Made by a program: the position numbers and the translations under genes. Under the pieces are notes generated by a model, which had not been told where the DNA came from, searched no databases, and saw only the letters and a list, made by a program, of their open reading frames with translations. Below, in pieces: positions 11,287 to 42,555 of a stretch of 64,000 nt of DNA (position 1 is the stretch's first letter; each line of letters starts with the position of its first letter). This DNA comes from Corynebacterium callunae DSM 20147 (GTDB lineage: Bacteria > Actinomycetota > Actinomycetes > Mycobacteriales > Mycobacteriaceae). The DNA lies in NCBI RefSeq assembly GCF_000344785.1, contig NC_020506.1, positions 372,001 to 436,000 on the forward strand, written 5' to 3'.

Positions 11287-14582
<3,296 letters not shown>

Positions 14583-20209: not shown

Positions 20210-20624
20210 GTTCCCAGTCTCCCTTATCATTCAGGTGTTTTAAAGTTTTCCACGCCACAATCTCATAAAAGCTTGCTGGGAATGCTGTTGAGGTGCCGAT
20301 TTTGGGTCGGTTTTGTGCCGCGCCCGGGGCATGACCATGGCGGGCGTGCGGATTTACGCAAAAAGGACGCCTGGCGGAAGTTTTTGTCGTAAATCGGCAC
20401 CGAAATGGGCGCATTTTGGTGCCGATTTGCACAAATATTCGATGCAACACTATGGATTTTCGTAAATTGGCACGCTTCCCGCTCAAACCTCGGAAAATTG
20501 CACTGCAGCTGCAAAAATAACCACCATCTAGAAGGCGATTTACGGGCATAAAAACGAGCCTAGTACCTTCTTGGTCATTAGCAAATATAAGCGCTTTAAA
20601 TTGGCTCCAGGCAAATCCCTAAAA
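20210..20624. other. Intergenic region with repeat element, no gene seen
   Basis: 415 bp with no credible gene; open frames here follow the palindromes. It contains repeat copy A (20344-20475) and looser related fragments on both sides, such as GTGCCGATTTTGGGTCGG near 20294 and GCGATTTACGGGC near 20534. Confidence 0.7.
20344..20475. repeat. Four-armed palindromic intergenic repeat, copy A
   Basis: Four arms alternate in direction: GCGTGCGGATTTACGCAAA (20344), CGTAAATCGGCAC (ends 20400), GTGCCGATTTGC (starts 20419) and CGTAAATTGGCACGC (ends 20475). The offsets from the first base (56, 75, 131) are the same as in copies B and C. It can fold into two successive hairpins. It lies between two minus-strand genes. 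Confidence 0.85.
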
Positions 20625-29605: not shown

Positions 29606-29881
29606 CCCCATAAAGCGTGCCGATTTACGCAAATATGCAATAACGAACGTGTATTCGTCGTAAATTGGCACGATATTTGGGTCTAGATGGTGCCGATTTA
29701 CGAAGAAAAGCACTAGACCAGACGGTTTTAGGGCACATCGGCACGACTGTTGAATAAAATTCGAAATCAGGTTCTAAAAGTAGCGCTTTATATGGCTGTT
29801 TAAGCGCCTAAATCTGTGGTCCCAATATAAAAGTTCATCCGGGGTGGGAACCGAGCTGAGACGCGCGCAGTCCAAATAGGT
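29606..29881. other. Intergenic region after regX3 with repeat copy B
   Basis: 276 bp without a gene. The first half is repeat copy B; the remainder is AT-rich with CAATATAAAAG near 29824, a possible promoter for the following gene. No terminator other than the repeat hairpins is seen after regX3. Confidence 0.6.
29615..29746. repeat. Four-armed palindromic intergenic repeat, copy B
   Basis: Arms GCGTGCCGATTTACGCAAA (29615), CGTAAATTGGCACG (29659-29672), GTGCCGATTTACG (29690-29702) and a shorter CATCGGCACG (29736-29745) stand at the same offsets as in copies A and C. The fourth arm is partly eroded. The 60 bp downstream also resemble those after copy C. Confidence 0.85.
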
Positions 29882-30778
29882 ATGGGGGATTACCTATTTT
29901 TCAGACATCCAGTGCGCTATAGAGAAGTAGCAGCAGAAATTTCCAAAAAAGAGTTCTATCGGCATTTCACGAAGGTCATAGGAAACGTCTATCTGCGCAA
30001 TGATCTCTTATCGAAGCGGCATAATTTGTCATTAGCACTGCTCAAACGCTATCCCGATGGGGTACTAAGGGGCTTTGCTGCGCTGCAATATCGCGGATAT
30101 GAGTTGCTCGATGAGAATTGGAAGCCAATCATCACCGTTTCTTCCCAAGATGGCAAGCCTAAAAATGACCTTGTCAAAGTGATTCGGCGTAAAAATCCTG
30201 ATGAATTACAAAAAGTTAAGGGATATTCGCTGGTCACTGATGCCCAAGCCTTAGTTGATATTGTCTCGATGCCGGAAACTGCGATGAAGTTTGAGGAACA
30301 GGTGGCTTTGCTTGATCACCTGCTGCGACAAAACCCATATTTGCGCACTGAGCTGGGAAAACATGAGTGTTTAAAAGAGCTTTTGGAATACTCAAATATC
30401 TTTGCAGAATCACGTCCGGAATCGATAGTTAGGGTACGTCTGCAAAAAGCCGGGATGGGCACGTTTGTGACGCAATTTAGGGTGGAGTATCAGGAGCGAC
30501 GGTATTTTTTAGACCTAGCTGATCCATATTCTTTTGTGGGCATTGAATACCAAGGAATCTGGCACTTTAATTCCAAACAGCGTGCTGATGATATAGATCG
30601 CAAAAATGATTTGGCAGACGCAGGTTGGACAGTATTTGAAATTTCTGCAGAGACACTTCATGACAAAAAGCGTTTTGCCGACATTTGTCAGAGAATCAAG
30701 AACATCAGAAAAGCCAGAATGGCCGAGCGACAGCGGAGACTTCCGCTTTCTCGGCCACTGAATGGGGATGAATTTTAG
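29882..30778 (+). CDS. Protein with C-terminal Vsr/DUF559-like endonuclease fold
   Basis: 298 residues. The N-terminal half is unrecognised, resembling the winged-helix/AbiEi-like front part common in such actinobacterial proteins. The C-terminal 100 residues have ESIVRVRLQKAG, FLDLADPYSFVGIEYQG, DIDRKNDLADAGWTVFEIS: the pattern of the DUF559/Vsr-like PD-(D/E)XK fold with D and E in the LDLADP/GIEYQG strands. The role may be defence or toxin-antitoxin; this is inference. It is AT-rich and overlaps the convergent permease stop by four bases. Confidence 0.65.
   Translation: MGDYLFFRHPVRYREVAAEISKKEFYRHFTKVIGNVYLRNDLLSKRHNLSLALLKRYPDGVLRGFAALQYRGYELLDENWKPIITVSSQDGKPKNDLVKVIRRKNPDELQKVKGYSLVTDAQALVDIVSMPETAMKFEEQVALLDHLLRQNPYLRTELGKHECLKELLEYSNIFAESRPESIVRVRLQKAGMGTFVTQFRVEYQERRYFLDLADPYSFVGIEYQGIWHFNSKQRADDIDRKNDLADAGWTVFEISAETLHDKKRFADICQRIKNIRKARMAERQRRLPLSRPLNGDEF
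30721..30756. terminator. Nested hairpin inside the 3' end of the endonuclease-like gene
   Basis: GGCCGAG pairs with CTCGGCC, and inside them AGCGGA pairs with TCCGCT. The two convergent genes overlap, so this coding-region hairpin may be their only barrier. No T-run follows on the plus strand, so its strength as a terminator is uncertain. Confidence 0.4.
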
Positions 30779-41865: not shown

Positions 41866-42555
41866 TTTCTTTGCGGGTTCCGTGGTGTTTTGGAACTCTA
41901 GCAGCGCTTTTGCTGGGCCTTTGCTGAGCTTTTGCAGGATGGGAAATGCTCGGCCTGCTTCGCCGCCCCGAACTTGCCTGAAATGGCTGGGGTTTGTCCA
42001 AGAATCGCCTTGAAAATGCCCCAAACTGGGCTCGAACTAGCTCCGGACTGGGCCTGGACTTGGCCCGGAAGCGCCAAGGCGTGCGAATTTACGCAAGTTT
42101 CAGTACTTGGGGGTCTGTTTTGCGTAAATCGGGATCAAAATCAGCCCAGAGTGGTCCCGATTTACGCAAACTGATACGCCTCCTGGCATATTTTGCGTAA
42201 ATCGGCACGCTCGATGAATAAAACTCAAAGTTAGCCCTAAAAGCCCAGGTGCTATATGGCCTTCTGAGGCCTTGAAATACCTTGAACCATACTCTGGCTA
42301 GCTTGGGATGTTTAGGGTCCTTAAATCGCCTTCTCTGGAGTAGCTCGTTCGGACCCAAAATCCTCACTGCCGCCGCGCCAGCCACGCCAGGAACAGCGCC
42401 AGCCCCCGCAGCATCGTCACGCGGAAAATTACATGTATTTTAAGAATTTTTTCTGCAACACTTAAGTTTCTGCCAGTTTGAGAGGCACAATTCGTGCCAG
42501 AATTGTGTAAAAGCCAGAGCAGCCGAGACTTTCGGTAGAAAAGAGAATTAGTGTC
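41866..42555. other. Long intergenic region after hemC
   Basis: 690 bp without a credible gene. 41866-42075 has short direct repeats of GCTTTTGC/CCTTTGCTG (41920-41940). 42079-42210 is repeat copy C. 42215-42290 resembles the flank of copy B. The remainder up to 42555 is GC-rich then AT-rich with no clear feature. Confidence 0.65.
42079..42210. repeat. Four-armed palindromic intergenic repeat, copy C
   Basis: Arms GCGTGCGAATTTACGCAA (42079), TGCGTAAATCGGGATC (42121-42136), GTCCCGATTTACGCAAA (42154-42170) and TTTGCGTAAATCGGCACGC (42192-42210) match copies A and B in order and offsets. Arms 2 and 3 carry GGGATC/GTCCC in place of GGCAC/GTGCC: a paired change that roughly keeps the stem. Confidence 0.88.

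Follow-up and report, generated by a model that had tools for sequence, protein, structure and literature searches.

Bacterial miniature inverted-repeat transposable elements (MITEs) are short, non-coding, multicopy sequences that carry inverted repeats. In REPIN-RAYT systems, doublets of repetitive extragenic palindromic (REP) sequences are accompanied by REP-associated tyrosine transposases; as set out in sections of PMC3116915, these paired palindromes are intergenic and occur in several flavours per genome, non-autonomous copies among them, each distinctive single-copy partner gene lies beside its own palindrome flavour, and co-evolution of site and protein has been proposed. The repeat described here resembles both. 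It was recognized in three copies, A, B and C, within a stretch of 64,000 nucleotides from Corynebacterium callunae DSM 20147 (contig NC_020506.1, positions 372,001 to 436,000; hereafter the window), and it consists of two successive palindromes, built from four arms, and a conserved tail; copy B adjoins a gene for a putative nuclease, here called the partner gene. Like a MITE, the element is short, non-coding and multicopy and has inverted repeats, and it shares with REPIN-RAYT each of the features just listed, co-evolution of site and protein being proposed here also.

However, there are principal differences. Unlike a MITE, the element has four internal arms, and no parent transposon with the same ends was seen when C. 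callunae was searched with the arms. Unlike in REPIN-RAYT, the partner protein resembles the PD-(D/E)XK superfamily, and the unit is about 250-300 bp long with a long tail. In REPIN-RAYT the partner gene adjoins a palindrome whose flavour recurs in the dispersed copies; here this trait was found at significance for five of 11 genes and not for the other six. A Y1 (PF01797) protein was found in none of the seven genomes that carry the system, against six of 14 in a control set, and membership of REPIN-RAYT was rejected on this absence. EDxHD / PD-(D/E)XK (Vsr-like) homing endonucleases possibly share with the partner both a superfamily and spread by cut-and-repair, yet no intron, intein or single target gene was seen here, the copies are many and intergenic, and the similarity is non-significant. 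Finally, the C-terminal domain of the partner weakly resembles DUF559 and MTES_1575 proteins (PF04480, PF18741), but the full-length partner family was found in only seven of 242 genomes of the genus.

The evidence favours, with a probability of roughly 0.6, a two-part system in which a REPIN-like, non-autonomous dispersed repeat accompanies an adjacent nuclease-type gene, the arms being the recognition sites of its product.

Architecture and distribution of the element

The genome under study (G000, C. callunae DSM 20147) comprises 2,928,683 bases in three contigs. It was searched with an arm motif, the 17-mer GTGCCGATTTACGCAAA, and with R1, a sequence-only model that was built from 11 C. callunae copies and includes the arms. 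Tails were located with R2, a tail model built from 10 gene-linked and 22 dispersed sequences of the seven positive genomes, three of these 32 being from the genome designated G117. The features in the window are as follows.

20346..20473, + strand: copy A, twin palindrome; arms 20346-20362, 20384-20400, 20419-20435 and 20457-20473
20493..20605, + strand: copy A, right-hand tail; R2 match with E 4.4e-14, the copy being among R2's 32 sequences
29617..29744, + strand: copy B, twin palindrome, gene-linked; arms 29617-29633, 29655-29671, 29690-29706 and 29728-29744
29749..29842, + strand: copy B, right-hand tail, shortened at its 3' end; R2 match with E 1.1e-8 over model positions 3-96 of 120, the copy being outside the R2 set
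29846..29875, + strand: promoter-like pair GGGAACC ... GCAGTCCAA, upstream of the partner gene
29882..30778, + strand: partner gene, 298 aa; weak PD-(D/E)XK similarity (MTES_1575/DUF559, below curated cut-offs)
42081..42208, + strand: copy C, twin palindrome; arms 42081-42097, 42119-42135, 42154-42170 and 42192-42208
42213..42330, + strand: copy C, right-hand tail; R2 match with E 2.5e-15, the copy being among R2's 32 sequences

A preliminary description, drawn from the window alone, had proposed a four-armed repeat of 132 bp at three intergenic places. All three copies are indeed present there with near-constant arm offsets, and all lie between genes, copy B next to the 5' end of the open reading frame (ORF) at 29882-30778. 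Ten of the 12 window arms match GTGCCGATTTACGCAAA with at most three mismatches, against 0.13 expected in shuffled sequence, and arms 2 and 4 of copy B have four mismatches each. Across the whole C. callunae genome the 17-mer has 26 matches with at most two mismatches, every one of them within an element copy by coordinate, while the reversed-pattern control gave none at the same threshold. R1 produced 25 matches at 13 places: 11 of the copies are full, one (at 327 kb) is a half copy and one (at 17.3 kb) is divergent. The genome thus holds 13 copies, three of them in the window. The offset from arm 1 to arm 4 is 111 bp in nine of the 11 full copies and 112 bp in the other two, which carry one additional base between arms 2 and 3; the genome-wide matches are neither loose nor differently spaced.

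The element is longer than first described and extends beyond its fourth arm. About 110 bp of conserved tail continue 3' of that arm, a feature that, like the adjacent nuclease-type gene, had no place in the preliminary description, and palindromes and tail together make up the 250-300 bp of the element. The conserved sequence 3' of arm 4 comprises TGAATAAAAC, followed by an A-rich stretch and CTAGAAGGC..TTTAAGGC, and about 55 bp further reaches a CCTTAAATCGGC-like end. Distances between tandem copies range from 279 to 355 bp (279, 279, 286 and 302 in G109, 290 in G096, 304 in G241 and 355 in G117). Some copies stand out by their surroundings: the divergent one (G000:17286-17534) sits between two tRNA-Ala (tgc) genes, and a near-identical pair 929 bp apart (G000:1268946-1270076) has a common adjoining terminator-like hairpin, and the duplication therefore took in flanking or tail sequence.

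Architecture was compared over a dispersed set of 91 copies, comprising 11 from C. callunae (copy B and the divergent copy excluded) and a non-random 20 each, drawn from the best listed, from G117, G241, G089 and G093; one G117 member, L235, lies in tandem with a gene-linked copy. In 80 of the 91, one or more strong palindromes (score of at least 20) are present, against 3.6-5.5% of shuffles. Where two strong palindromes are present, their centres lie 69.5-74 bp apart in 15 of 18 copies, 83 bp in two and 140.5 bp in one. Five gene-linked copies have two palindromes at a score of 16 or more, and in G241 the centres are 71.5 and 72 bp apart. A centre spacing of about 72 bp, near seven helical turns, would fit a protein complex bound to the DNA duplex.

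At E<=0.001, R1 found relatives in three further genomes, that is, in four of the 242 genus genomes including C. callunae. Most arms in these relatives differ in sequence (e.g. GTGCCGATCGCACGGAT in G093) while layout and tail are kept. The count of four arose because R1 contains the arms, and it was corrected by the tail model. R2 was run with a cut-off of E<=0.1 on 39 genomes, the seven positive ones and 32 for comparison, seven of which have only distant relatives of the partner protein. It gave 17 matches in C. callunae, 70 in G093, at least 93 in G241, 85 in G089, at least 93 in G117, 10 in G109 and six in G096; those in G117 are nearly all new, since only three R2 sequences come from that genome. 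Of the comparison genomes, 27 had no match and five had one or two borderline ones (best E 0.009). Matches are not identical with copies: the 17 in C. callunae comprise the 13 known places, three weaker tail-only matches and one on the opposite strand, which overlies the 187-kb copy. G058 and G027 gave two weak matches to R1 (E 0.0025 and 0.0046), which were viewed by eye only and dropped. A plasmid or phage origin was also considered and set aside, as one C. callunae copy and one G117 copy gave no match.

The wide range in tail matches among related genomes, from six to at least 93, bears on a role in genome structure or defence, in which the palindromes would label DNA as self or protect the chromosome against a nuclease directed at incoming DNA. 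Purifying selection on the nuclease-type gene would agree with such a role, as would the weak match of two of eight family members to a methyl-directed restriction profile (best E 0.0021). Tail counts this uneven argue otherwise, as does a site that holds an element in four species but not in a fifth (see below), and this is the least probable of the accounts weighed here.

The partner gene and its cognate arms

The partner gene lies directly 3' of copy B and is the sole homologue of its family found in C. callunae; a related ORF behind elements was first noticed in G241 and G089. A protein profile from eight family members, A3, found 13 full-length homologues (E < 1e-90) in seven of the 242 genus genomes, and these are the same seven genomes that give six or more tail matches. 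At E<=1e-10 the profile matched in 44 of the 242, but the next best match (1.9e-41) was partial and most others covered the C-terminal half only. Among 397 genomes of the order, a full-length match at E<=1e-25 was found only in C. callunae, with partial ones in G261 and G374. A search for viral relatives of the protein found none.

Element and gene are also linked in position. A palindrome lies upstream of 12 of the 13 partner genes, as called by an automatic finder at a score of 16 or more and without a shuffle control at that score; the thirteenth gene (G093/437k) has imperfect upstream palindromes by eye, and those upstream of the G117, G109 and G096 genes were likewise viewed by eye. Among the matches listed, a tail precedes 10 of the 13 genes, copy B being the only one of these outside R2 training; two of the remaining three have partial tails by eye, and G241/1649k has none. 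R1, although trained on C. callunae, matched just 5' of partner genes in G241 (566676-566871), G093 (457940-458113) and G089 (439394-439448). Given 13 copies among the 2,647 protein genes of C. callunae, adjacency by chance would be expected at about half a percent per gene. All 13 gene-linked loci have GGAACC ... AGTC between element and start codon, a promoter-like pair similar to those of extracytoplasmic function (ECF) sigma factors. Because this promoter-like sequence and the start codon lie 3' of the element, the element is probably outside the partner-gene mRNA. At G241:566328-566871, a first copy and the opening codons of the partner gene are followed by a second copy with the complete gene; the 5' end of the gene seems to have been duplicated in tandem.

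Arms from 11 gene-linked copies were scored as 14-mers against the 91 dispersed copies, at least 13 identities counting as a match. For the C. callunae gene, 11 of 11 copies from its own genome matched but only one of 80 foreign copies. The corresponding values are 12/20 vs 0/71 and 4/20 vs 0/71 for two G093 genes, 11/20 vs 5/71 for G089/RR and 10/20 vs 12/71 for G117/RR. Enrichment in the own genome is significant for five of the 11 genes (p 0.0041 or less), and matches summed over all 11 are 60/211 own and 36/790 foreign. The gene-linked arms of G109 and G096 match none of the 91 copies, a set that holds no copies from those two genomes; in G096 one dispersed tandem pair has, by eye, the arms of the gene-linked copy. 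Arms differ both between species and between paralogues.

The C-terminal domain of the partner protein, searched at E up to 1, weakly matches MTES_1575 (PF18741) in eight of eight members (best 6.5e-6) and DUF559 (PF04480) in six of eight (best 2.2e-4), with a weak DUF2726 match in four. The nearest solved structure is PDB 3r3p, a 'mobile intron protein' that we take to be I-Bth0305I, with a weak profile match (E 0.29), and the Vsr-like resemblance is also weak. Three residues, D208, E219 and H225, are invariant in the eight-member profile alignment, and would on our assumed assignment fit a PD-(D/E)XK-type site. All 13 partner ORFs are intact. Values of dN/dS between 0.07 and 0.21 in six of eight pairs (four with dS >1; the other two pairs saturated) show purifying selection on the gene. 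At the response-regulator locus, the regulator of C. callunae is 89-90% identical to that of four other genomes and the partner protein only 45-48%; by this comparison with its neighbour, the partner protein evolves fast, but under constraint.

Proposed movement and recognition, and alternative explanations

Mobility, which the preliminary description had raised as a possibility, gains indirect support from the 13 copies, from the shared layout in six further genomes with tail matches and from the gap between a gene that we take to be gyrB and a hydrolase-like gene. By eye, four genomes (C. callunae, G093, G241 and G117) have an element in this gap, always oriented the same way but with lineage-specific arms; in G089 the gap is short and without an element. 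Furthermore, at eight of the 13 C. callunae loci the flank (1.35 kb) matches that of an element locus in another species, in a comparison of 73 partly overlapping loci without a computed chance level; at 1269 kb the orientation is, by eye, opposite to that of the flank-matched locus. From these shared flanks and lineage-specific arms, it would appear that sites persist or are reused while the element sequence turns over. G109 and G096 have common sites with different tandem copy numbers (3 vs 1 and 2 vs 1). At the gene-linked locus the two cease to be homologous 18 bp before arm 1. A lagging-strand preference was considered and put aside: 86 of 147 listed tails are leading-strand (p 0.047), a value treated as uninformative.

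One alternative is a MITE-type element that depends for its movement on a conventional transposase from another locus, the nuclease-type gene having hitchhiked or using the element as its regulatory region. Such an element would likewise be short, intergenic and multicopy and bear inverted repeats, and would explain why several arm classes are without a matching gene in their own genome. Yet the confinement of the C. callunae 17-mer to element copies (26/26) means that no insertion sequence with such an end was seen there, the search for transposases as such having covered Y1. Co-occurrence and linkage with the partner gene also count against this explanation, as do arms that differ by lineage while the tail persists, and it is considered unlikely, if the foremost of the alternatives.

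The genomic setting of the copies bears on a further possibility, that the partner protein is a regulator (a domesticated nuclease) and the palindromes are the operators of its regulon. The arms do behave as repeated binding sites would, and at the gene copies the palindromes lie upstream of promoter-like sequence, as autoregulation would predict. However, automatic ORF calling places 25 of 27 loci (12 from C. callunae and 15 others, eight of these gene-linked) in tandem or convergent gaps. The two 'divergent' loci look mis-assigned, as the upstream gene points towards the element in each; one such gene is hemC by Pfam and the other presumably deoC. In addition, dispersed copies have a homologous tail of about 110 bp in common, beyond sites alone, solitary arms (at most two mismatches) were not found in C. 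callunae, and tandem arrays of two to three whole units are present. A regulon is accordingly held to be less probable again than a MITE.

Selection on a folded RNA had also been proposed, in part from a paired change in arms 2 and 3 of copy C. The change is present, but covariation across C. callunae copies is not supported: in 10 copies, one near-duplicate having been dropped, arms that share a copy resemble each other no more than arms taken from separate copies do (p 0.08-0.96, six arm pairings). Stem mismatches over five genomes show no strand bias, with 161 G-U and 146 A-C (p 0.42). RNAalifold favoured a fold pairing arms 1-4 and 2-3, which the likeness of all the arms allows. By eye the tail seemed to contain a convincing third hairpin, but 61 of 500 shuffles pair as well, and there is thus no covariation. 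Rfam (4227 families) gave no match at gathering score in the window and, for 10 further loci, a single sub-threshold microRNA match (E 0.094; 25.6 bits, where the gathering score is 90). The folded-RNA reading was rejected on these negative covariation, wobble (C. callunae excepted), tail-hairpin and Rfam tests. If it acted as a structured RNA, such as a 3'-end stabilizer or a guide or OMEGA-like RNA preceding its nuclease, the element would suit its place 5' of a nuclease-type gene, its long hairpins, the G-U excess of C. callunae alone and the weak RAP-domain similarity of four of the eight proteins. Against this stand, besides the test results, the promoter-like sequence and start codon 3' of the element, which would leave it outside the mRNA. 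The chances of a structured RNA are judged slight, below those of a regulon and a little above those of a defence role.

Since in C. callunae arms within a copy are no more alike than arms between copies, we read them as four instances of one recognition site, and not as a covarying fold. In the favoured two-part system, the partner protein would recognize the arms as double-stranded DNA and would nick or cut at the element. Cutting could then lead to copying into intergenic sites, to gene conversion among copies, or to both, in a homing-like manner, and recognition sequence and enzyme would turn over together in each lineage. This would amount to a mechanistically new bacterial mobile repeat, in which a resident PD-(D/E)XK/Vsr-type endonuclease, and not a transposase, spreads or homogenizes four-arm palindromes by cut-and-repair, and in which the palindromes of a genome switch together with enzyme specificity. 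This fuller mechanism is put forward tentatively, at somewhat less than even odds.

Several observations weigh against the two-part system. Own-genome enrichment of arms is non-significant for six of the 11 genes (p 0.12-1), with 0/20 for G241/1649k. Many copies have no match among the genes of the genome that carries them, and several palindrome classes are without a matching gene; by eye, a ACCAGACAGGCGTGCCAA-like arm class, the commonest in the G241 set and present also in G117 and G093, has no clearly matching gene there. Lost genes or a broader specificity may explain such orphan classes. Only 18 of the 91 copies have two strong palindromes, and gene-linked pairs are spaced at 53.5 bp in G109, 53.5 bp in G096 and 101.5 bp in G089/RR. 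R2 training covers nine of the 10 gene-linked tails listed, whose matches arise by construction. The filled and empty gyrB sites gave neither a target-site duplication nor an exact junction, the flanks being too diverged. The partner protein falls under curated cut-offs wherever scores are shown, RAP, an RNA-linked domain, is weakly matched by four of eight members, and the single-sequence structure model (pLDDT 37) is uninformative. Lastly, C. callunae by itself has 18 G-U against five A-C mismatches (p 0.011).

The window contains two further kinds of repeat. The motif CGTCGAAAAGC occurs 10 times, against 0.04 expected, several times near ORF ends, and is a candidate for a separate repeat or a chromosome-architecture motif. 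Its positions are given first below.

2524, 2548, 12138, 17657, 17829, 19383, 26431, 35718, 44053 and 48851: CGTCGAAAAGC
11433-11732 and 13040-13339: 300-bp stretches, 1607 bp apart and 70% identical, apparently paralogous coding sequence

Novelty and significance

A search of the open-access literature found no description of these Corynebacterium repeats. In the accessible portions of two stem-loop surveys (PMC2267715, PMC1590033), Corynebacterium is mentioned once each, for C. diphtheriae, and the corresponding portions of papers on C. glutamicum small RNAs and the transcriptome (PMC4046766, PMC3890552) do not mention such repeats. Set against the repeat systems compared here, the system differs in both partner superfamily and element layout.

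To our knowledge, REPIN-RAYT is the main known case in which a population of bacterial repeats is associated with a single resident protein. If the two-part reading is correct, a second, unrelated system of this kind would exist in relatives of C. glutamicum, which would point to more than one origin of such arrangements. A function would be assigned to a group of DUF559-like proteins, and the system would account for dozens of intergenic elements in G117, which we take to be probably C. glutamicum. It would also offer a harmless and genetically tractable host for direct tests of the co-evolution of site and enzyme.
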